From Hydrogenovibrio marinus (lineage in GTDB: Bacteria > Pseudomonadota > Gammaproteobacteria > Thiomicrospirales > Thiomicrospiraceae), in contig NZ_AP020335.1 of assembly GCF_013340845.1 (NCBI RefSeq), forward strand, positions 806,001-870,000: a stretch of 64,000 nt of DNA, in the 5' to 3' direction. How positions within the stretch are numbered: the stretch's first letter is position 1; every line of letters begins with the position of its first letter. Shown piece by piece: positions 5,258 to 64,000 of this stretch. A program made the translations under genes and the position numbers. The notes beneath the pieces are model-generated. The model saw nothing but the letters and a program-made list of their open reading frames with translations, did not search any database and was not told the DNA's origin.

Positions 5258-5277
5258 AAAATCTGCCTGGTTGGGGG
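5258..5277. repeat. Dispersed intergenic repeat, half-element copy 1
   Basis: The sequence reads AAATCTGCCTGGTTGGGGG. It differs by one base from the half-element core AAATCTGCCAGGTTGGGG seen elsewhere in the window. It lies between the convergent genes grxD and rnt, just past the grxD terminator, and no right-hand inverted arm is visible. Confidence 0.7.
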
Positions 5278-22089: not shown

Positions 22090-22134
22090 AAAAATACCAG
22101 GTTGGGGTGTCTTACCCCAACCTGGCAGATTTTA
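22090..22134. repeat. Dispersed repeat, palindromic copy 2
   Basis: This is an inverted repeat with perfect 11-bp arms CCAGGTTGGGG / CCCCAACCTGG (22097-22107 and 22115-22125) around a 7-base loop. Partly paired AAAATA / AGATTTT flanks extend the stem. It fills the gap between convergent rimI and suhB and probably serves as a bidirectional terminator. Confidence 0.85.
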
Positions 22135-32464: not shown

Positions 32465-32552
32465 CCTAAATGCCTAAGGCTTTAGGAGGAATTGGGGGGA
32501 GTGTTAGGCCTTAAAATCGGCTATTTCACTTACCCCAACCTGGCAAATTTTT
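32465..32552. repeat. Hairpin and half-element of the dispersed repeat, copy 3
   Basis: A hairpin (CCTAAA/TTTAGG with inner GCC/GGC, 32465-32486) is followed at 32533-32552 by CCCCAACCTGGCAAATTTTT, the right-hand arm of the dispersed repeat. The left arm is missing or too diverged to pair. The element lies between der and the large oxidoreductase gene, which run in the same direction. Confidence 0.6.
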
Positions 32553-38866: not shown

Positions 38867-40264
38867 ATGACCTCCAACATCAACGCGGCTCAAAAAAGGC
38901 GAGAACAGGTGTTTGACACCATGGTCGAAAACTCGATCATGATGATAGCGTCTGGAGAAGAGCAGATACGCAACCATGATGTGGAGTTTCCTTTCAGAGT
39001 TCAGTCCGACTTTCACTATCTAACGGGTCTTGAAGAGCCAGATGCTGTTTTAGTCCTAATAAAGCGCAATCAAGAAAACCAAAGCAAACAGCAAAGTGTG
39101 TTGTTCCTTCGCCCAAAAGACGTTGAAAAAGAAATTTGGCAAGGCCGACGCTTGGGTGTGTTGGATGCTCCCTCAACCTTACTTATTGATGATGCTTTCT
39201 CCATAGAAGACTTCGAGGATGAAATGTCTGACTTGGTTGAAGATATCGAAACACTTTACTTCAGTTTTGCACAGCTATCGGAATGGTCGGATTTATTAAG
39301 TGGCTGGATTTCGGCGCAGAAAGCCAAGGCCAGAAAAGGCGTTGAGGCGCCAGCGACTTTGTCGGATGCTGACGTGATTTTGCATGAAATGCGTTTGGTG
39401 AAGTCTTCCGACGAAATTGAGTTGATGAAACAAGCTGCTCAGATTTCAGTGCAAGGACACTTGGCAGCGATGTCTTGGGTGGCGCAGTCAATTGCAAAAT
39501 CTGCCAGGTTGGGGATGGCGCAAGATTTTGAGCCAGTCTATGAATATCAAATGCAGGCTGCATTGGAGCATAAGTTTAAGGAGCAGGGTTCTGCTCGCGT
39601 TGCATTTAACTCAATTGTGGCTGGCGGGGATAACGCTTGTATTTTGCACTACACCGAAAACAACATGCACTTGAAAGCAGGTGATTTGGTGTTGGTAGAT
39701 GCCGGTGCGGAATACCTAGGCTATGCGGGTGATATCACGAATACTTTTCCTGTGGACGGTAGGTTTTCAGAGGCACAACGAGTGTTGTATCAAATTGTTT
39801 TGGATGCACAACAAGCCGCTATTTCAGCGATTGCTCCGGGTGTTCATTATGATGAAATGCATAAGGCGTCAACACGCGTATTGACGGAAGGTCTGGTTGG
39901 CCTCGGTATTTTAGACGGCGAGATAAGTACACTTCTTGAAAACGAAGCCTACAAACCGTTTTTTATGCATGGAACCGGGCATTGGCTTGGGCGAGATGTA
40001 CATGATGTAGGGCGCTATAAGCTTAAGGGACAGTGGCGCCCTTTAGAACCGGGTATGGTGATTACCGTAGAGCCAGGGTTGTATATTTCCGAGGAAGTAG
40101 GGCGTGAACACCAAGTGGACAAAAAGTATTGGAATATTGGTATCAGAATCGAAGATGATGTCTTGGTGACTTATTCAGGACACGAGGTGTTGACTTTCGG
40201 TTTACCGAGAACGCCAGAAGAGATTGAGCGCTTTATGAAAAGTGCTGCTGGAGATGAGGCTTAA
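38867..40264 (+). CDS. pepP: Xaa-Pro aminopeptidase P
   Basis: This 465-residue metallopeptidase releases N-terminal residues preceding proline. The N-terminal creatinase-like domain contains FPFRVQSDFHYLTGLEEPDAV. Metal ligands lie in LVDAGAEYLGYAGDITNTFP, HGTGHWLGRDVHDVG, and ITVEPGLY. Between the helix LAAMSWVAQ and EYQMQAALEHKF there are about ten more residues than in E. coli PepP (compared from memory). This extra part coincides with a copy of the window's dispersed repeat (39496-39530). It ends three bases before ubiH. Confidence 0.95.
   Translation: MTSNINAAQKRREQVFDTMVENSIMMIASGEEQIRNHDVEFPFRVQSDFHYLTGLEEPDAVLVLIKRNQENQSKQQSVLFLRPKDVEKEIWQGRRLGVLDAPSTLLIDDAFSIEDFEDEMSDLVEDIETLYFSFAQLSEWSDLLSGWISAQKAKARKGVEAPATLSDADVILHEMRLVKSSDEIELMKQAAQISVQGHLAAMSWVAQSIAKSARLGMAQDFEPVYEYQMQAALEHKFKEQGSARVAFNSIVAGGDNACILHYTENNMHLKAGDLVLVDAGAEYLGYAGDITNTFPVDGRFSEAQRVLYQIVLDAQQAAISAIAPGVHYDEMHKASTRVLTEGLVGLGILDGEISTLLENEAYKPFFMHGTGHWLGRDVHDVGRYKLKGQWRPLEPGMVITVEPGLYISEEVGREHQVDKKYWNIGIRIEDDVLVTYSGHEVLTFGLPRTPEEIERFMKSAAGDEA
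39496..39530. repeat. Dispersed repeat copy 4, embedded in pepP
   Basis: The 19 bases AAAATCTGCCAGGTTGGGG (39496-39514) are identical to the intergenic repeat half. They are followed by ATGGCGCA and an inverted AGATTTT (39524-39530) that can pair with the start. The copy is in frame within pepP and encodes KSARLG and neighbouring residues. Confidence 0.8.
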
Positions 40265-44883: not shown

Positions 44884-44904
44884 ACAAGCGTGAATTAGAG
44901 AAAT

Positions 44905-44932
44905 AAAAAAACGGGCTATATGCCCGTTTTTT
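44905..44932. terminator. Terminator after the LysR gene
   Basis: The hairpin AAAAACGGGC-TATAT-GCCCGTTTTT lies 22 bases after the stop. It has flanking A and T runs, so it may act on both strands. Confidence 0.9.
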
Positions 44933-44961
44933 GTTTGAGTGATTTTGAAGTTGCTATGGTT

Positions 44962-45019
44962 AAAAATCTGCCAGGTTGGGGGTGTTGGTTGGTGTTAACC
45001 CCCAACCTGGCAGATTTTT
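44962..45019. repeat. Dispersed repeat, complete palindromic copy 5
   Basis: This is the best copy in the window: two perfect 21-bp inverted arms (44962-44982 and 44999-45019) containing AAATCTGCCAGGTTGGGG. They surround a 16-base GT-rich loop. It lies between convergent LysR and phoH genes, starting 30 bases past another terminator. Confidence 0.95.
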
Positions 45020-55278: not shown

Positions 55279-55310
55279 AAAAATCTACCAGGTTGGGTAT
55301 GGCGCAGTAA
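55279..55310. repeat. Dispersed repeat, half-element copy 6
   Basis: AAAAATCTACCAGGTTGGG is followed by TATGGCGCAGTAAAA. This extends the match to the pepP-embedded copy, which also has ATGGCGCA after GGTTGGG. It lies between convergent soxB and the CysB-like regulator gene; no right-hand arm is seen. Confidence 0.75.
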
Positions 55311-55386
55311 AACACTGTTTATGGTTTTCGAGCTTGTGGACAGTAAGTAGATAAGGGTAGGCGTGTGTGGCCCTAGCTAATTTTGC

Positions 55387-56280
55387 TTATTGGTTCAATT
55401 GTACGCTTAGAAATGAATCTACTAAAGCCTGTTGGTAAGGAGCTAAAATGCGTTTTTTTAAGGAGGCGCAAAATGCTGTGGAAAATCCGAGCTCCTTTGT
55501 TAAAAAATGAGATCTTAAATCGATCTTATCACTGTCTTCAAACGCCATTTGCGCAACGATTCCTATTCCAAATCCTTGACGTACATATGTTTTGATAACA
55601 TCAGCGTCAGAAGCAACGATTTCAAATTGAAATTGAGGGTTTAATGCCTTTAAAGCGCATGCAACCTTATCACTATGGCTAAAGCCTTTTCTGTAAGAAA
55701 GAATTGGAAAATTCAATAGTTTTTCTAGACTTAAATCCGTGTTCCAAACAGGGTGCTTGTGGGGGGCTATTAATAAATGAGACCATTTATAGCCACTAAG
55801 AGCCTCTAACTCCTCTTTGTCGGCTAAAACTTCAGAACAAATTGCTATATCAATAATATCTTTTTTAAGCATGTTATATAAGTTTTCTGGAGAGCTTTCT
55901 TCAATATGAAATTTTGTATCAGGATGTGTTTGCTTGAAAATCGATAATACTCGCGGGAGAACGTAACGAGCCTGAGTGTGAGTGGTGCCAAGTCTAATAC
56001 ATCCTTTATGCGGATTTTTACAGGCTTCGCTTACTGTTTGAATATTCTTCTGTGCCATGCAAATAATTTTTGCTTGCTCAAGAATTTTTTCTCCATCCAA
56101 TGTAAAGGATACTAGTTTTTTTGAATGGCGGACAAATATAGGAAACCCTAACTCGTCTTCAAGAAGCTTAAGCTGCCTGCTGCCTGCAGACTGCACTATA
56201 TGAAGGTTTTGAGATGCGAGTGATAAATTTAAGTTGGTTTTATTGAGTTCAATGAGTAATTTAATTTGTGTAAGAGTCAT
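55387..56280 (-). CDS. CysB-type LysR transcriptional regulator
   Basis: This 297-residue regulator resembles CysB and Cbl, the activators of sulfate and sulfonate assimilation genes. The N-terminal helix-turn-helix has NLNLSLASQNLHIVQSAGSRQLKLLEDELGF. The effector domain shows the CysB-specific TTHTQARYVLP and ASDADVIKTYVRQGFGIGIV. The ATG giving MTLTQIK is chosen because GGAG lies upstream at good spacing. It is divergent from a YeeE/YedE sulfur transporter gene 99 bases away, which is its most likely target. Confidence 0.9.
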   Translation of the reverse strand: MTLTQIKLLIELNKTNLNLSLASQNLHIVQSAGSRQLKLLEDELGFPIFVRHSKKLVSFTLDGEKILEQAKIICMAQKNIQTVSEACKNPHKGCIRLGTTHTQARYVLPRVLSIFKQTHPDTKFHIEESSPENLYNMLKKDIIDIAICSEVLADKEELEALSGYKWSHLLIAPHKHPVWNTDLSLEKLLNFPILSYRKGFSHSDKVACALKALNPQFQFEIVASDADVIKTYVRQGFGIGIVAQMAFEDSDKIDLRSHFLTKELGFSTAFCASLKKRILAPYQQALVDSFLSVQLNQ

Positions 56281-56379
56281 TGATATCTCCAATTTAGATA
56301 TAAAGTTCAATTAATATCATTTAATTTAATACATTGCAATGTGTAGAATGACTTATAAATCATTTTTTGGAGTTTATAA

Positions 56380-57591
56380 ATGTTGTTTACAGTTTGTCAA
56401 TACGTAGGAATTTCGAAAAGCAAGATATACGCTACAACGTTATTTTTTGTAGGTTTTTTGGTGTGGCTTTTAGTGTCAGTTGGAAATGTGTGGTTGTTAT
56501 TATCAGGGGTGGCATTGGGAATCGTTTTTTATTATTTTAGTTTTGGTTTTGCGGGTTTTTGGAAACATGCAATTCTTGACAGAAAAACATTAGGTATGAG
56601 GTCTCATCTTGTTCTTCTTGCAGTAGGCGGCGCGTTATTTTTCCCTTCACTATCTCTTTTCCCTGAATTTGGTTATAACATTGCTGGAGCAGTACGTCCA
56701 TTGGGTATAAATGTGTTTATTGGAGCATTTATTTTTGGCTCTGGCATGGCTCTAATGGGGAGTTGTTCTTCTGGTACTTTAAAGAAGATGGGATCATTTG
56801 ATTGGTTATTTTATTATGTATTCTTGTGGATGATTATTGGAGGAACTTTGGCAGCCTCACAAATGGGATTTTGGCTAGAGTTGCCTTCGTTAGAACCGTT
56901 TTCGGTAGCTACCGACATTCCTTGGTATTTGGGCTTATGTTTACATTTACTCGTCATATTTGTTTTGTATCGTTTATTATTGAAATGGGAAGCAAGTCGT
57001 TATGAATATATTGAACTACTGGTGTTTAAAGGAGAGAGAGGCGTAGTTTCTTCTCCCTTACTTCTAGCGGCAACTCTAGTGGTTATTCTGAACTATATAA
57101 TTTTATTGGTGAGTCATCACCCATGGGCTATAAGCTGGATATTTCCTAAATTAGGTATTATTGGAATCCAAGAGTTATCTTTACCTATTGACTGGGAATT
57201 TTGGGAGTTTAGTTCACAAAATGAAAGTTCTTTGTCCAAAAGGGTTTTGGATGACTCAATAGTTTTGACAAGTTTAGGGATGGTCATCGGTGTATCTTTA
57301 GCTTTTTTGGGACAAACATTAGTCTCTAGGAGAGAACATCATCATCTGTCGAGCGCCAATTTAACTCCAGCATGTAGCAATTATGAGATTGTGAAGCGTA
57401 TATTGTTTGCAACATTTACAGGCGGCATGATGGGATATGGTTCAGTGATAGCTTTTGGCTGCAATGTAGGTGGTTTTTTTAGTGGAATCATTTCCGGAAG
57501 TTTACATGGTTGGCTATGGTTAGTTTCAGCCTTGCTGGGAATGACTTTGACACTCTTTATTATGAACAACTTTAAGCGAGTCAGGGCTTGA
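56380..57591 (+). CDS. YeeE/YedE family sulfur-compound transporter
   Basis: This 403-residue membrane protein has about nine or ten hydrophobic helices. The two sulfur-transport signatures of the family are present, each with a cysteine near the pore: FGSGMALMGSCSSGTL (Cys129) and GSVIAFGCNVGGFFSG (Cys361). Characterised relatives (TsuA) import thiosulfate through such cysteines. A good GGAG ribosome site precedes the ATG. Divergence from a CysB-type regulator supports sulfur-responsive expression. The exact substrate is inferred, not shown. Confidence 0.85.
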   Translation: MLFTVCQYVGISKSKIYATTLFFVGFLVWLLVSVGNVWLLLSGVALGIVFYYFSFGFAGFWKHAILDRKTLGMRSHLVLLAVGGALFFPSLSLFPEFGYNIAGAVRPLGINVFIGAFIFGSGMALMGSCSSGTLKKMGSFDWLFYYVFLWMIIGGTLAASQMGFWLELPSLEPFSVATDIPWYLGLCLHLLVIFVLYRLLLKWEASRYEYIELLVFKGERGVVSSPLLLAATLVVILNYIILLVSHHPWAISWIFPKLGIIGIQELSLPIDWEFWEFSSQNESSLSKRVLDDSIVLTSLGMVIGVSLAFLGQTLVSRREHHHLSSANLTPACSNYEIVKRILFATFTGGMMGYGSVIAFGCNVGGFFSGIISGSLHGWLWLVSALLGMTLTLFIMNNFKRVRA

Positions 57592-58823
57592 AATTTAAAA
57601 GTTGATTATGTTTTCTCAATGTTGGGGAGCTGGAGAGTAAAGTGTTTGATAAGTTGTATCGCTTTGTGTAAATTTAAAACTTATACTCAATCTGCAATCT
57701 AGTTGCGCTATTTGTGATGGACTTGTTTAATACAGAAAATACGCAGAGTAGTGCTTCAAATTTCCAATCCTTCCAAAAATTCTAGGCTAAGCTTCTACTT
57801 CTTAAAGTCTTAGAGATTATTATATTCGAAACGATTTTTAATCGGTTTATCTGTATTTTTATATCGCATAGCAACTGTATTTGAAGAAGGGGTAATACTC
57901 TTCTTCATTGCTTTAAAGAGTATGTTGAAGTTGTGGAGCTCTCTATTTTCTGAGTTCGTTTGAATAAGTGGAAGCGGTAAATTGATAATGTGCTTCCTAC
58001 ATTTGGAAGAAATTTCCAGTTCAGTAACCAAATCCTAAATTGATTTCATTCTTATTATAATCAGAATTTTCGCTGCTTCTTACCGATAGAACAATTGTTA
58101 TTTAGATCTCCCTCGCCGCGAATATCGGGGGTAAACACACTTAGTATTGCTTGAGAGAGCTAGTTGTGAGAATAGAAAATCCACGTAAAACCCGAATGTA
58201 ATTGACTTAAGTGTTTTTATATGTCCTGCTTTAGTTTATATAGTTTTTGCTGTCGTTTTAATTGCGTTATAAGTCTAAAAGTTGAGAGAAAGAGACGGTC
58301 TTGAATGGTTATCCTGGAGTTGCATGGTAGAGTCCAGCCAGTGTTTTTAAAAATCTTCCTATATAGATCGATTGGATAATTCTGACGTTAAACACATAGT
58401 GTTGTTTCCTGCAGTATCAGTTTGTCTGTCTAAACAAAATACTCAGCCATTTGGGATTGCGTGTTAGAAGCAGTTATCTGAATAGACGTTGCCTAAAAAA
58501 ACAATTTGAAAGCAATATAGATTAATCCAGAATAGATGATGTATCCAAAATAATGTCCGGATAATGCCGATAAAACTCCAGATCTTAGTCACTTCTTTCT
58601 CTGGAATGATATTAGTTGTTGTAGTAATAATTCTAATTACAACCTTTGATTGGAGTAGTTCTCTAAAACAATAGCTGCTGCTTCAAACGCTTAATACGAT
58701 CAAAAAGGACCCGGACTTGATTAATTTCCGGGCCAAAAGGAGGAATGATAGGAATATTCTATGCAAGTAAGAGGGGGGAGTTGATATTTTTAATTATTAT
58801 TGAATTTTATTAACTAAAAAATT
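57592..58823 (-). pseudogene. Gene-poor, apparently decayed stretch with a possible porin remnant
   Basis: These 1.2 kb are AT-rich and broken by stops in all frames. At 57674-57781 on the minus strand a 35-codon fragment reads NFWKDWKFEALL, then NKSITNSATRLQIEYKF and a stop. This alternating pattern ending in Phe looks like the last strands of an outer-membrane beta-barrel. A TTG-initiated frame at 57810-58031 contains the similar wording KKSITPSSNTVAMRYKN. No complete gene is supported, and the porin idea is tentative. The remainder (58040-58700) holds nothing I can identify. Confidence 0.35.
58702..58734 (-). terminator. Terminator of the hydrogenase operon
   Basis: On the minus strand GGCCCGGA pairs with TCCGGGTCC (one bulged base) around an 11-base loop and is followed by TTTTT. 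It lies about 90 bases after the last gene of the hydrogenase operon. Confidence 0.75.
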
Positions 58824-59582
58824 CTAGCCTTGCCAAGTGTTTATGTCAGACTTTTTGCCTATCCACGGCATAATCCACATTTGATACAGCGAAGTAAAAA
58901 TCATAATCGAAGAAGCCAAGCTATACCCAAAACCACCAATGATTACAAGCCATGCATATTCAGGGTTGCTCTTGGTCAACCACCAAGAAGCCACATCTAT
59001 CACCAAAAACGCAAATGGAATGAAGATAAGAGTTCCTTTCACCCACCGGTTCCAGCTGACAGACATGGAGAAAATCAGCCCAACAAAGAAGAAAATAAAT
59101 GAAATCCCAAACAAATGGATATGCGCGACACGTACCATAGAGGTTTCCGTAGCACCATGATCAACTTTTGCAAATAATTTAATGACATCGTACTTCGGAA
59201 TGTCAGGAATACCAGGAATCACACCATGACACTTAGCACAATACTTGTCGACTATTGGCTTGATTTTCGGTTCCCACTGAGACTTTGGGGCACCGTCACG
59301 CGCCCATTGAATCAAAGTAAAACGAGCCTCCGGTGGCGCATTCATTTTCATTGAGCCGTTGAGTTTTGCTTCTAGCGTTGAACCTGTACGGTTTCCGTAA
59401 TAACTGTAAACAATATCATTCACTGATAAGCCAAACTTTCCGTCAGCCATACCATGAGTTAACATAATCTGTACCCCCGCCATTAAAAGGCCTAGGCATG
59501 TTACCATCAAATATCCTGTGAACAATGCTTTAACTGGAATAGATATATTAGTGAGGTTAAGCGAAGAACAATTACTATTCAT
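58824..59582 (-). CDS. Membrane c-type cytochrome protein of the hydrogenase operon
   Basis: This 252-residue protein is not one I can name. It has an N-terminal transmembrane helix (about 16-38). A periplasmic part follows with a haem c motif CAKCH in DKYCAKCHGVIPGIPDIP. Then come four hydrophobic helices with a His-rich turn (VRVAHIHLFGISFIFFF) that could hold another cofactor. It follows hupC on the same strand by 121 bases. Its position suggests a role in passing electrons from the hydrogenase to the respiratory chain. The ATG at 59582 is chosen; an in-frame TTG at 59651 would add 23 residues. Confidence 0.75.
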   Translation of the reverse strand: MNSNCSSLNLTNISIPVKALFTGYLMVTCLGLLMAGVQIMLTHGMADGKFGLSVNDIVYSYYGNRTGSTLEAKLNGSMKMNAPPEARFTLIQWARDGAPKSQWEPKIKPIVDKYCAKCHGVIPGIPDIPKYDVIKLFAKVDHGATETSMVRVAHIHLFGISFIFFFVGLIFSMSVSWNRWVKGTLIFIPFAFLVIDVASWWLTKSNPEYAWLVIIGGFGYSLASSIMIFTSLYQMWIMPWIGKKSDINTWQG

Positions 59583-59703
59583 TGGTTGAATACCTTGTGA
59601 TTTAATATATAAAAAAAGAACATCCTGGCTTTTTAAACCAAGAATGTTCAAAGACCGAGGAGCACTCGAGTCAAACGTAAAATCGTAACGATATGTGGGT
59701 GTT

Positions 59704-60390
59704 TTATCGTTTATCTTTAAAGAAACGCCATCCGCTAATCATTGTGCTAACCATTGATTGGCGAGACATAATATCTTCGCGGATTGCGACATATACATGG
59801 GCAATTACAAAAACAACGATAATCCATAGACCAAGTCGGTGCCACGAATGGACATCTTGGCTTTGACCAAAAAGTGGTATTACCCATCCAAACAACTGAT
59901 TTGCCCAACTTCCAGGGCCTGTTCCCTCTCCATAAAGTGCAAACCCAGTAAAGATCATTAAAATGGAGCCAAGGACAAACATACTAAACATTGCAAGTTG
60001 TGCCATAGGGTTATGACCTTCATGCTTGCCAGGTTCTTTTTTTAGAAATAGATACCATTTTAATTCGTCAATAAATCCTTTACGCCATGAGGCACGCCAG
60101 ATTGGTACATAAAACAGTTCACGAGCGTGATGATTCCCTACAAAAGCCCAATAAATTCGACCTGCAAAACCAATTGCAAAAATATAGGCCGCACTGAAAT
60201 GTAGAAAACGAATAGTTCCCATCAGGTAGTGATCTGATGCTTCGCCGCTCATCGTTGGTAAAGGATTGCCTATTAAATAGCCAGTTATTCCAAGTACAAT
60301 AATGGCCAACATATTTATCCAGTGCCAGAGTCGTATAGGGGCTTCATACACATAAACTTTGTCTACACCCGTTAAATTGGCATCACTCAT
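59704..60390 (-). CDS. hupC: Ni/Fe-hydrogenase b-type cytochrome subunit
   Basis: This 228-residue inner-membrane cytochrome b anchors the hydrogenase dimer and passes electrons to quinone. The start YVYEAPIRLWHWINMLAI is the family signature. Haem-ligand histidines lie in RLWHW, RFLHFSAAYIF and in the later HSWHRLGLW and VIAHVYVAIRED segments. Four transmembrane helices are apparent. It follows hupL by 65 bases in the operon. Confidence 0.95.
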   Translation of the reverse strand: MSDANLTGVDKVYVYEAPIRLWHWINMLAIIVLGITGYLIGNPLPTMSGEASDHYLMGTIRFLHFSAAYIFAIGFAGRIYWAFVGNHHARELFYVPIWRASWRKGFIDELKWYLFLKKEPGKHEGHNPMAQLAMFSMFVLGSILMIFTGFALYGEGTGPGSWANQLFGWVIPLFGQSQDVHSWHRLGLWIIVVFVIAHVYVAIREDIMSRQSMVSTMISGWRFFKDKR

Positions 60391-60455
60391 TTGAGTTCTC
60401 CTATTTTATTAAAGTGTGTGCATTCACAGGTAGTGCGGATGCACACTTTTTGTAG

Positions 60456-62291
60456 TTATCGAACCTTGACGGTCGCCATTTCTTCGCCTTCTTCACTCAT
60501 AACATGCGTTGAACACGCTAAGCACGGATCAAAACTGTGAAGGGTACGAAGTACTTCGACCGGTTCATCTGGGCGTTCCATTGGAGTTCCCATAAGAGAT
60601 GCTTCAAAAGCTCCTATATTTCCTTTAGGGTCACGAGGAGAGCCATTCCAAGTTGTTGGCACAACACACTGGTAGTTTTTGATCTTTCCTTTCTCAATAA
60701 CAATCCAGTGCGCCAGAGCACCGCGAGGAGCTGCAACTGTTCCCACACCTTTGGCATGTTCAGGCCAGCTCGAAGGATCCCACTTGTCTGTATTAGCCGT
60801 ACTGCTATCACCGTTTTTAATGTTGCTGATCAATTGGTTGAAGTCATCTAGCATCATGTCTCCGCAATACTCTGATTCAAGAGCACGAGCAAGAGTTCGG
60901 CCGATTGTTGATCCAAGGAAAGCTTTCAGGTCGGTGATGTCTTTATGGTTTGGGTCTAGCAAACGACATACAGCGTTAAACCTATTTAGGCTTGTGTGAA
61001 CCTGAGTCTTAACGTATTCAACGCCTTGGGCATAGGCAAGTATATAGCGTGCAAGTGGCCCTACTTCGACAGCATGCCCCCTCCAGCGCGGGGATTTGAT
61101 CCAGGAATATTTTGCAGATTCGTCGATTTCGATGATGTTTGTTCTCGACCCTTTTGTTTTAGATCCTAGTTCATAGTTTGGCTCTGTAATACCATCCCAT
61201 GGATGAAGTCCTTTTGTTTCGTCTGGGTATTTGTACCAAGAATGAGTGACAAATTCTTGAACCTGCTCAGGATCTCTAGGGTCAACTGGATGAATTTTCC
61301 CCCAATCTCCATTAATGATTGCACCTCCAGGTAGTTGATCTGTAGATTTATCATATGGAGTTTTAGGGTATGCGCCATAATCCATAACGTTTGTCGCGGA
61401 TAGCCCTCCACCATATAGCCAGTCGCGATAGAAAGCTGCGATAGCTATAACGTCGGGTACATAGACATTGGTGTTAAAGGTTCGCCCTTGTTCTATAAGT
61501 GATTTGACAAAGTTTAAACGCTCCATGTTTATAGGGGCACCCGCGGCCATATCTCCATCGATGTTTATTGCACAAGGCACACCTCCAACCATATAGTTAG
61601 GGTGAGGGTTTTTACCACCGAATATCGCATGGATTTTGACGATTTCTTTTTGGAAGTCCAGAGCTTCAAGATAGTGGGTAACAGCCATAAGATCTGCTTC
61701 GGGAGATAATTTATAGGCGGGGTTACTCCAATAACCATTCTTGAAGATTCCGAGTTGCCCAGAATCTACGAACTTTTGGATTCTGATTTGAATGTCTTTG
61801 AAGTAGCCAGGGCTAGACATTGGGTGATGCGGTGAGACTAGTTTTTGTAGTTCAGAGGTTGCCTGAGGATCTGCCTTCAAAGCATTTACTGGATTGACCC
61901 AGTCTAGAGCATGTAAATGGTAGAAATGCACAATATGGTCATGAATTTGAAGTGTTTTGGCCATAATTTCGCGAATTAAAGTGGCATTGTGCGGAATTTT
62001 GATATCTAGAGCATCCTCAACCGCTCGAACTGATGCCAAAGCATGGCAGCCAGTGCAGACACCACATATGCGTTCTACAAATGCCCATGCGTCACGAGGG
62101 TCGCGTCCGCGAAGAATAACCTCAAGGCCTCGCCACATAGTGCCTGTGGATACGGCATTTTGGATGACATTGTTTTCATCAACGTTGACTTCACAACGCA
62201 TGTGGCCTTCGATACGAGTAACAGGATCAATGACTACTCGACGACCGGAGTTGTCCATCTTATAGTGGTTTGGTGTGTTTAATACGCTCAT
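60456..62291 (-). CDS. hupL: [NiFe] hydrogenase large subunit
   Basis: This 611-residue catalytic subunit carries the nickel-iron-cyanide centre that splits hydrogen. The N-terminal ligand motif [10 protein letters not shown] has C76 and C79. The C-terminal motif DPCLACSTH has C590 and C593. A 15-residue tail after His596 should be removed by the maturation protease encoded divergently at 63725. Close similarity to the E. coli HyaB ending supports a group 1 membrane-bound enzyme. It starts two bases after hupS. Confidence 0.97.
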
Positions 62292-62293
62292 TA

Positions 62294-63379
62294 TTATTTA
62301 TCTCCTTTCTTTTGAGCCGCTTTTACAGCACTTATCGCTGCATGAGCGACTACTGCTGCACCGACAACACCGATGGCGGTTTTACCAATATCGTCTGCCG
62401 TTGCTTCAATGCCAAATGCGTTCATCTCTGTATCGCGTGAGTAGAAGGATCCTTTGTCCCAGAACCCATCTTCAGAACAGCCGATACAGCCATGACCAGA
62501 TTGAATCGGGAAGGAAGTTCCTCCATTCCAACGGACGGTTGAGCAGGCGTTATAAGTTGTTGGGCCTTTGCATCCAACTTTGTATAAACAGTAACCTTTA
62601 CGAGCACCTTCGTCATCCCACTCTTCTACAAATTGACCGGCATCAAAGTGAGGGCGGCGGTAGCATTTATCATGAATACGTTGTGAGTAGAACATTTTAG
62701 GACGACCTTGTCGGTCCAGCTCAGGGATGCGATCAAAGGTTAGCATATAGGTAATGACGCCAGTCATGACTTCAGCAATTGGAGGACACCCAGGCACTTT
62801 GATAATCGGTTTGTCATACCCGCCGCCAAGAAATTTATGTACTGGCGTGGCCTGCGTAGGGTTTGGTTTTGCTGCCTGTACGCATCCCCATGACGCGCAA
62901 GAACCCCATGAAATGATAGCTTTTGCATCATCGGCCATGCGTTTTAATTGTTCGGAAAAAGGGCGGCCACCGATAATGCAGGACATTCCATCCTGATTAA
63001 GCGGAGGGTTCCCTTCTACCGCAAGAATATAGTTTCCTTTATATTTTTCTTTAATTTCATCAAGAATCGCTTCCGCTGCATGTCCAGAGGCTGCCATGAG
63101 GGTGTCGTCATAATCCAGAGAGATCATGGATAACACTACGTCTTTTGCTAGTGGGTGAGCAGAACGAATAAAGGATTCTGAACAACACGTACATTCCAAA
63201 CCATGCAACCAGATAACAGGCGTGCGAGGCTTTGTTTCCATCGCATGAGCAATTTTGTTCGCATAAGCAGGACTAAGCCCTAATGCAGCCGCAGTAAGGC
63301 TACAGTATTTCAAAAAGCTGCGACGCGTAATTCCTTGGCGCCGCATGACTTCATAGAACGTTTCAACTTGAGATGACAT
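62294..63379 (-). CDS. hupS: [NiFe] hydrogenase small subunit, oxygen-tolerant type
   Basis: This 361-residue electron-transfer subunit has a twin-arginine signal TRRSFLKYC (residues 19-26). It has the cysteines of three Fe-S clusters and a C-terminal membrane anchor (about 330-352). The proximal-cluster cysteines are C63, C65, C66, C161, C166 and C198. The extra pair C65 and C166 equals the supernumerary cysteines of E. coli Hyd-1, giving a [4Fe-3S] cluster that confers oxygen tolerance. This is known for Hydrogenovibrio marinus hydrogenase. It is the first gene of the operon. Confidence 0.97.
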
Positions 63380-63471
63380 AGCAATCCTCGTTTTTATTTT
63401 TTAACTTGAAATAGATTAAGTACTAAAAAGGGCGTAAGCCAAAGTGCATGTACTTATGTTCTTGTTGCTCT

Positions 63472-63489
63472 AAGCGCGCCTAGTGCCAA
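63472..63489 (-). promoter_or_regulatory. Candidate sigma-54 promoter of the hydrogenase operon
   Basis: The minus strand reads TTGGCACTAGGCGCGCTT. It has the invariant GG and GC exactly ten bases apart and a perfect TGGCAC box. It would start transcription near 63462, about 80 bases before hupS. Sigma-54 control of uptake hydrogenases is known in Ralstonia. Confidence 0.5.
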
Positions 63490-63539
63490 GTTGATAAAAA
63501 TACATATATTTCAATAGGTAATGGTGATTTTTTAAGATT

Positions 63540-63703
63540 CCATTTCTTGTTTTTTGAAAACAAACTTTTCGTATATTTATTTTTTCGAAAACAAAGTTTC
63601 CGTTTTTTTTTGAAAGAGCTATAAGTTTTTTGAAATGGCCATAAGTTTTTTTGATTTTTTTAATTGAAGGAAAAGAGTACTATTTTAAAAAAAACGGAAA
63701 CTT
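63540..63703. repeat. AT-rich repeat region between hupS and the protease gene
   Basis: Two direct repeats of GAAAACAAA with T-runs (about 63556 and 63587) are followed by two copies of CATAAG/TATAAG plus TTTTTT (about 63620 and 63641). A 17-bp perfect inverted pair lies at 63594-63610 and 63687-63703, with the core AAGTTTCCG / CGGAAACTT. This 345-base gap holds no gene and is likely the control region for both divergent units. Confidence 0.6.
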
Positions 63704-63724
63704 AATTATCTATTTGGAATGAAA

Positions 63725-64000
63725 ATGAAAACTTTAGTTTTAGGTATCGGTAATTTACTATGGGCCGATGAAGGATTTGGTATTCGCTGTATTGAGTATA
63801 TGGATGCGGAGTATTCTTTTGATGACTCTGTTGAGCTAATGGATGGTGGTACTCAGGGGATATATTTAGCTCACCATGTTCAGGAGGCTGATAATCTGAT
63901 TATTTTTGATGCAATTGATTACGGTATGTATCCAGGAGAAAAGCGTGTTATTCGTAATGATGCTATTCCGAATTTTATGGGCTGTAAGAAAATGAGTTTA
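63725..64000 (+). CDS. hyaD: Hydrogenase maturation protease, cut by window edge
   Basis: This endopeptidase removes the C-terminal tail of the hydrogenase large subunit after nickel insertion. The first 92 residues show the family start KTLVLGIGNLLWADEGFGIR, containing the metal-sensing Glu, and MDGGTQG with the second conserved Asp. IIFDAIDYG and GCKKMSL follow. It is divergent from hupS. The ATG at 63725 is preceded by GGA; another in-frame ATG at 63719 is possible. The C-terminal half lies beyond the window. Confidence 0.93.
   Translation, partial: MKTLVLGIGNLLWADEGFGIRCIEYMDAEYSFDDSVELMDGGTQGIYLAHHVQEADNLIIFDAIDYGMYPGEKRVIRNDAIPNFMGCKKMSL

Follow-up and report, generated by a model that had tools for sequence, protein, structure and literature searches.

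A dispersed 18-bp motif of Hydrogenovibrio as a putative DNA-uptake sequence with lineage-specific dialects

What is the short inverted repeat that lies between a LysR-family gene and a phoH2-like gene of Hydrogenovibrio marinus, and what connects it to similar sequences nearby? The window, that is, the whole stretch of 64,000 nucleotides analyzed here, is part of a genome (G000) assembled as a single contig of 2,491,293 bases (2.49 Mb). An earlier note had reported a repeat at six loci of the window. All six are present, at coordinates good to 1–2 bases, and together they contain eight half-sites with up to three mismatches to the 18-mer defined below, where shuffling predicts 0.07. Gene neighbors were assigned by NCBIfam and convergence by the strands of open reading frames, which confirmed convergent neighbors for four of the five intergenic loci. 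The features are as follows:

5259..5276, plus strand: single motif copy with 1 mismatch, between convergent grxD-like (Grx4-type glutaredoxin) and rnt (RNase T) genes
22090..22132, no strand assigned: inverted pair in the convergent rimI/suhB-like gap, with a hairpin on both strands
22090–22107, plus strand: left half of the 22090 pair, degenerate, 3 mismatches
22115–22132, minus strand: right half of the 22090 pair, exact match
32533..32550, minus strand: single motif copy with 1 mismatch, downstream of der, in the gap that separates der from a large codirectional gene for FAD-oxidase domains
39497..39514, plus strand: exact motif copy within a Xaa-Pro aminopeptidase-like gene (38867–40264)
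44903..44933, plus strand: hairpin of the LysR gene that resembles an ordinary intrinsic terminator (GC stem and T run), adjoining the 44962 pair and outside the motif
44962..45019, no strand assigned: inverted pair in the convergent LysR-family/phoH2-like gap, with a 22-bp mismatch-free stem and a 14-nt loop
44964–44981, plus strand, and 45000–45017, minus strand: halves of the 44962 pair
55281..55298, plus strand: single motif copy that departs from the 18-mer at 2 positions, in the convergent soxB/cysB-like gap; synteny with Hydrogenovibrio sp. JE_KL2 (G001) stops about 100 bases further on

Folding upheld the perfect arms claimed for the palindrome at 44962, whose stem of 22 bp has no mismatch. 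The second palindrome, at 22090, had been called full; it does form a palindromic hairpin, but its left half is degenerate. A search of the window against Rfam 15 at gathering score returned no matches. Over the LysR–phoH stretch, the genome is 93% identical to that of its neighbor JE_KL2.

The right-hand part of the window has features of its own. Synteny with JE_KL2 and with a second compared genome, G004, stops at about 55.2–55.4 kb, right at the 55281 copy. Past this copy (55300–64000) follow a sulphur transporter and a [NiFe] hydrogenase operon. These 8.7 kb contain no motif copies where about 1.3 are expected, which matches acquired DNA on a stretch too short for proof. Beside the hydrogenase region, about 1.2 kb (57600–58800) carry neither a called gene nor an open reading frame of 100 codons.

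Counts over the whole H. marinus genome showed that the repeat is a dispersed family, as the earlier note had proposed: a 17-mer of the motif occurs 374 times with up to two mismatches (172 forward, 202 reverse), and the reversed control word does not occur. To define its extent and gene context, we used 20 evenly spaced 20-kb stretches together with the window, 464 kb in all. The logo of 68 sites gives the consensus AAAATCTRCCAGGTTGGGK, 18–19 bp long, with an information content of about 34 bits summed over logo columns for sites preselected at up to two mismatches. Information is at background on both sides of these 18–19 bp. The same 464 kb contain 40 exact copies, 63 with up to one mismatch, 68 with up to two, and 72 with up to three, compared with none for the reversed word at any of these levels; at up to four mismatches, the counts are 86 and 8. 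Flat flanks and mismatch counts together identify a sharp, short motif rather than the end of a longer repeat. An extra ATGGCGCA after GGTTGGG, earlier described as a shared trait of two copies, does not characterize the family, as the next position carries 0.84 bits and later ones at most 0.2 across the 68 sites.

For the gene context of the copies, genes were called heuristically over the 464 kb, which gave a coding fraction of 0.887. The 68 sites comprise 23 genic copies, 20 in convergent, 20 in codirectional, and 4 in divergent gaps, and 1 at an edge; the caller skipped the cysB-like gene, so that the 55281 copy is counted as codirectional but is actually convergent. The number of copies per kb is highest in convergent gaps (1.5), followed by codirectional (0.85) and divergent gaps (0.33), and lowest within genes (0.056); the concentration between convergent genes first seen in the window thus extends to the sampled genome. 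Genic copies sit in either orientation. Enlarging the sample to 544 kb yielded 85 half-sites with up to three mismatches, among which 12 pairs lie within 60 bp of each other (5 inward, 7 outward); at up to 10 bp, the distance used in PMC1852404, 1 pair faces inward and 6 outward.

The copies are also spaced more evenly than random. With pairs collapsed, the coefficient of variation (CV) is 0.59 compared with 0.91, and none of 2000 simulations was as low. Even spacing recurs for the related words (see below) of G009 (CV 0.48) and of H. halophilus DSM 15072 (G005; CV 0.57), each with a p of 0.0015. G004 displays a trend only (CV 0.77, p 0.11), with short distances underrepresented (p 0.005). With respect to GC skew, the 80 sites in the 544 kb divide into 47 of one orientation and 33 of the opposite one, a lean that chance could give; in the negative-skew half, the count is 24 of 34 sites.

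Comparison with the sister species G004 revealed that positions are kept while the spelling changes. The DNA around shared sites is 61–81% identical, about 75%. Starting from 80 H. marinus sites, 46 have no ortholog in the G004 stretches covered and 2 are one-sided, which leaves 32 testable sites; 28 of these carry the motif at the same place, 2 have a diverged or shifted copy nearby, and 2 lack it, both through substitutions across the motif. In the opposite direction, 86 G004 sites divide into 50 without ortholog, 4 one-sided, 28 present, and 4 near, one of the latter being a pair with one arm missing from H. marinus in a local gap. At the 28 shared sites, motif identity is 0.953 with position 13 excluded, whereas the flanks, 25 columns to each side, reach 0.58 when gaps are scored as differences. 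Position 13 itself is T in H. marinus and C in G004 at 27 of the 28 shared sites, and throughout the sampled sequence it is T at 79 of 80 sites in the former and C at 85 of 86 in the latter. The sole shared site that keeps T in G004 is the motif copy within comEC of H. marinus (L159:7833), which is also in register with a palindrome of G009. These alignments indicate that the motif evolves in place, by substitution at conserved positions. As many sites have changed the same base in place, a common trans-acting reader of the motif would be needed.

Farther from H. marinus, the word itself differs. The 18-mer is absent from 8 of 11 Hydrogenovibrio genomes (0–2 matches). Seven of these eight contain 93–515 copies of a palindrome, ACCAGGCCTGGT, which has no copies in the three 18-mer genomes. 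Among 34 genomes of the family, ACCAGGCCTGGT is present in 93–660 copies in 15 and in 16 and 25 copies in two more, and 0–1 copies were counted in each of 21 genomes that represent as many other families of the class. De novo k-mer counts on short stretches uncovered further spellings, namely AAAAATCGCCAGGGGTGGG in G008, TACCGGCCGGTA in G031, and AACAGGCCGGGT in G029. The word is AGCAGGCCTGCT in Thiomicrospira sp. ALE5, CAGGCCTG in Thiomicrorhabdus sp. ZW0627, and CCAGGCCTGG in both Thiomicrorhabdus sp. Milos-T2 and H. halophilus. Total intergenic density of the dialect words is raised in G009, H. halophilus, G002, and G031 as well. With both strands counted, the palindrome of G009, and less sharply that of G002, has A-rich positions at a distance that matches the A-tract of the 18-mer, and the H. 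halophilus palindrome is T-rich at the corresponding positions.

A tree of the single gene ComEC (20 rows) unites the genomes with asymmetric spellings, G000, G001, G004, and G008, in one clade with moderate support (88/88). Judged by this one gene tree, the lineage-specific dialects appear to follow phylogeny, and since the only asymmetric clade lies among palindromic relatives, the palindrome is probably ancestral to the asymmetric 18-mer. Conservation in register between dialects is modest: the 18-mer of H. marinus coincides with the G009 palindrome at 2 of 13 testable sites (both genic, one within comEC) and with the word of G002 at none of 3, and 1 of 7 sites has a match within 40 bp in H. 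halophilus.

Two further words were considered as dialects and set aside: AGAAACCGAACTGCG in G017 is a local repeat within about 300 bases, and TGATGCATCA in G016 is probably one too, as its overlapping words make up a single family within the first 27 kb and a further 60 kb brought no gain. Six genomes with a ComEA-type protein (G011, G012, G017, G018, G024, and G028) yielded no dialect in the 0–60 kb sampled from each (0 kb in G028), which may reflect loss, a dialect that escaped detection, or sparse sampling.

Genes of the competence machinery are widespread in the family. ComEC (PF03772) is encoded in all 11 Hydrogenovibrio genomes. A ComEA-type HHH_3 domain scores above cut-off in 29 of the 34 family genomes, including all 23 in which a motif was found (20 by whole-genome count, two of them with the 16 and 25 copies, and G008, G029, and G031 by k-mers). 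The domain is below cut-off in G014, G016, G020, G023, and G027, all of which have zero counts for both searched words; G014 and G027 are 85 and 84% complete, and k-mer discovery among the five covered G016 only. The association between ComEA and the motif has a p of about 0.002 by Fisher's exact test, with relatedness ignored. As HHH_3 also matches in controls such as E. coli, it serves as a marker and is no proof of competence. Six genomes of genus g6 (G015, G019, G022, G026, G030, and G032; L276–L281) contain, besides a small ComEA-like protein, an open frame of 732–788 aa with a very strong HHH_3 match (101–110 bits).

T2SSE ATPases were found in all four genomes searched, with four in H. 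marinus. Based on size, neighbors, and the MshEN domain, three of these are read as PilB/MshE, PilT, and PilU. The PilB-type ATPase is part of an MSHA-like pilus locus (L157:5418–14761) with a secretin, an AAA ATPase, the MshEN-bearing ATPase, and a T2SSF protein. In the 20-kb stretch that holds this locus no pilin-like gene was found, and searches with TIGR02532, PF07963, and a regular expression located pilin-like genes of H. marinus in one cluster only, at about 2.036–2.039 Mb. GspH/FimT was considered as a receptor and rejected, as nothing matched above cut-off in six genomes.

Taken together, the observed properties of the motif are its sharpness and abundance on both strands, its positions with a preference for gene ends, its even spacing, its concerted change in place, its dialects, and its link to ComEA, in genomes with ComEA-like, ComEC, and pilus-type ATPase genes. 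An uptake sequence fits this combination better than any rival, and we consider it likely that the motif is a DNA-uptake sequence of Hydrogenovibrio, one dialect of a family-wide system. It is a short, non-mobile word in hundreds of copies on both strands; its copies lie within genes and are enriched at gene ends, some of them as inverted pairs, as is characteristic of uptake sequences. The gene content suggests, in addition, that the host possesses competence machinery. Counting against the uptake reading are the negative GspH/FimT search, the single pilin-like cluster and the MSHA-like character of the pilus locus, the six ComEA-positive genomes that yielded no dialect, the limited specificity of HHH_3 for competence, a copy number below and a motif length above those of known uptake sequences, the modest conservation in register between dialects, the mostly outward orientation of close pairs, and nine contigs in IMG/VR with one motif copy apiece, from which no conclusion on depletion from prophages is drawn.

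The receptor, biased uptake, and the resulting drive are the parts of this explanation that we infer. On the cell surface, a receptor that is probably a type IV pilin-like protein would bind the motif on free double-stranded DNA, and the tagged DNA would be brought in by pilus retraction, ComEA, and ComEC. Homologous recombination would then favor tagged alleles, so that copies accumulate at tolerated places and stay near-perfect. Shifts in receptor specificity would let the copies drift in place to a new spelling, giving rise to dialects, and inverted pairs downstream of genes may have been co-opted as bidirectional terminators.

Uptake sequences are discussed for Neisseriaceae and Pasteurellaceae in the available parts of three papers (PMC1852404, PMC3630211, and PMC12616744). 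In the first, the DUS copies of Neisseria meningitidis divide into 635 intragenic, 375 tail-to-tail, 760 (396+364) tail-to-head, and 104 head-to-head; close DUS pairs in Neisseria are 226 inward and 5 outward, those in Pasteurellaceae are mixed, and USS pairs are described as bidirectional terminator shapes (PMC1852404, in part). Eight DUS dialects that act as barriers have been described in Neisseriaceae (Frye et al, 2013; PMC3630211, in part), and the same eight are counted alongside two USS types of Pasteurellaceae, for which ComN/PpdA is the receptor candidate (Helsem et al, 2025; PMC12616744, in part).

As far as these accessible portions go, the Hydrogenovibrio motif resembles the DUS in its hundreds of copies on both strands, a comparable distribution over genes and the types of gap, gene-end copies arranged as inverted pairs, lineage dialects, and the presence of competence genes. 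It differs in its unrelated core (CAGGCCTG or CCAGGTTGGG in the Hydrogenovibrio family, GCCGTCTGAA in the DUS), its greater length (18–19 bp), its lower copy number, and its palindromic dialects, and its close pairs are 1 inward and 6 outward instead of 226 and 5; a counterpart of the ComP receptor was not identified. Likewise, the 18-mer shares with the Pasteurellaceae USS the combination of a core with an A-tract, copies in and between genes, and mixed pair orientation, but its core is not GCGG (AAGTGCGGT) and its copies are fewer. The consensus AAAATCTRCCAGGTTGGGK matches neither the GCCGTCTGAA nor the AAGTGCGGT core and is thus not a known DUS or USS by sequence.

The rival that survives best, although we judge it unlikely, is the binding site of some other genome-wide DNA-binding protein, involved in nucleoid organization, segregation, or repair, whose specificity changed between lineages and dragged all sites along. 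Even spacing and the concerted T-to-C change would fit such a protein too, the palindromic dialects resemble sites of dimeric proteins, and the lean with GC skew is slight at most (47 of 80; 24 of 34 in the negative-skew half). However, the strong preference for gene ends and convergent over divergent gaps is the known DUS pattern, the motif went from symmetric to asymmetric in one clade, and the five family genomes that have no ComEA-type match contain neither searched word. Chi sites, which are over-represented genome-wide and related to recombination, offer a further comparison; the Hydrogenovibrio motif is far longer, rich in intergenic copies, and palindromic in sister lineages, and leans only slightly with GC skew (47/80).

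The reading proposed by the earlier note, a REP or MITE-like family that acts as a terminator or mRNA stabilizer, would have the copies spread by transposition; it is largely refuted, and we regard it as very improbable. Like REP/BIME elements with a RAYT, the motif is dispersed, high in copy number, partly palindromic, and close to gene ends; the pairs at 22090 and 44962 form hairpins, copies are enriched between convergent genes, and at four sampled places two outward-facing copies surround a second structured repeat, which gives the look of a composite element. Yet the search of the H. marinus genome for the RAYT domain (Y1_Tnp, PF01797), which the note had called for, returned no match, while the E. 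coli control was positive; this disposes of a REP family with its own RAYT. A MITE is at odds with the logo, in which no sequence is conserved beyond the 18–19 bp, and with the ortholog alignments, in which the two sites absent from G004 differ by substitution. Moreover, G004 has the motif at 28 of the 32 testable positions, the missing half of one G004 pair corresponds to a local gap in H. marinus, and a third of the sampled copies (23 of 68) are genic; copies stay put and change by point substitution.

A function primarily as intrinsic terminators with a common stem sequence appears still less probable. Inward pairs do place the A-tract outside, as a terminator requires, and the 44962 pair folds into a stem of −40.7 kcal/mol (z −6.6); a GC-rich hairpin with a T run is present at this pair and, less well, at the 22090 pair. 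However, most sampled copies are single, inward pairs number 5 against 7 outward ones among the 85 half-sites, and genic copies occur in both orientations. Two single copies that were folded form no terminator hairpin (z −1.5 and −1.1). The proposed role as a bidirectional terminator could therefore apply only to a minority of copies, with some inverted pairs forming strong hairpins, and the small number of inward pairs makes it at most a secondary use.

Equally hard to credit is a site that serves restriction-modification or is highly iterated in the manner of HIP1 and plays no part in uptake. The sister dialects are short palindromes with a CAGGCCTG core, reminiscent of the cyanobacterial HIP1, itself a highly iterated palindromic word of lineage-specific presence. 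However, the 18-bp asymmetric form with its A-tract is longer than modification sites usually are, enrichment between genes holds in G009, H. halophilus, G002, and G031 too, and both the longer asymmetric dialects and this enrichment set the motif apart from HIP1.

Returning to the uptake-sequence reading, we also favor, with somewhat less confidence, a broader proposal: the family of Hydrogenovibrio, Thiomicrospira, and Thiomicrorhabdus may be a third one with its own putative uptake code, unrelated to those of Neisseriaceae and Pasteurellaceae. The ancestral tag would have been palindromic, with a core of the CAGGCCTG type between AT-rich flanks, so that it could be read both ways; in one Hydrogenovibrio clade it would have become asymmetric and 18 bp long, with the copies changing their spelling where they stood. 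If so, the dialect series CCAGGCCTGG, CCAGGCTGGG, CCAGGGGTGG, CCAGGTTGGG, GCAGGCCTGC, and CCGGCCGG would allow the co-evolution of receptor and tag to be watched, and tested, in free-living chemolithoautotrophs. A separate system with many dialects in sulfur-oxidizing bacteria of marine and vent habitats would show that sequence-tagged DNA exchange arose repeatedly, and would point to natural transformation as a route of gene flow and a species barrier in these autotrophs. It also provides a practical hint, as DNA meant to transform Hydrogenovibrio could be given the strain's own tag.

As far as we searched, an uptake sequence is new for this family. Among the matches listed by title in the open-licence literature, we found none on uptake sequences of Thiomicrospira, Hydrogenovibrio, or Thiomicrorhabdus, and no uptake experiment with the motif. 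In the accessible part of the main text of the SP-41/XCL-2 Hydrogenovibrio genome paper (PMC6501319), competence, transformation, and pili are absent as terms, and uptake, repeat, and palindrom- appear in other senses.

Finally, the second structured repeat is a unit of about 36–40 bases (TTTTCTCGCCTTACCCCTTCGGGCGGCGAGTGCTTCGTTT) that recurs in H. marinus, G004, H. halophilus, and JE_KL2 (L158:1659–1806, L014:1442–1517, L023:1442–1517, and L027:1442–1517; L162:2466 in G004; L093:18548 and L169:7210 in H. halophilus; L099:2296 in JE_KL2). At the places in H. marinus and G004, it lies between two outward-facing motif copies, as a threefold tandem in L158, whereas it has no flanking motif in H. 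halophilus and JE_KL2. The loci searched gave no Rfam match up to an E of 1. The H. halophilus unit contains a compensatory change in its stem (CTCGAC/GTCGAG), and the same genome also carries a cobalamin riboswitch (L169:16144–16361, 90 bits).
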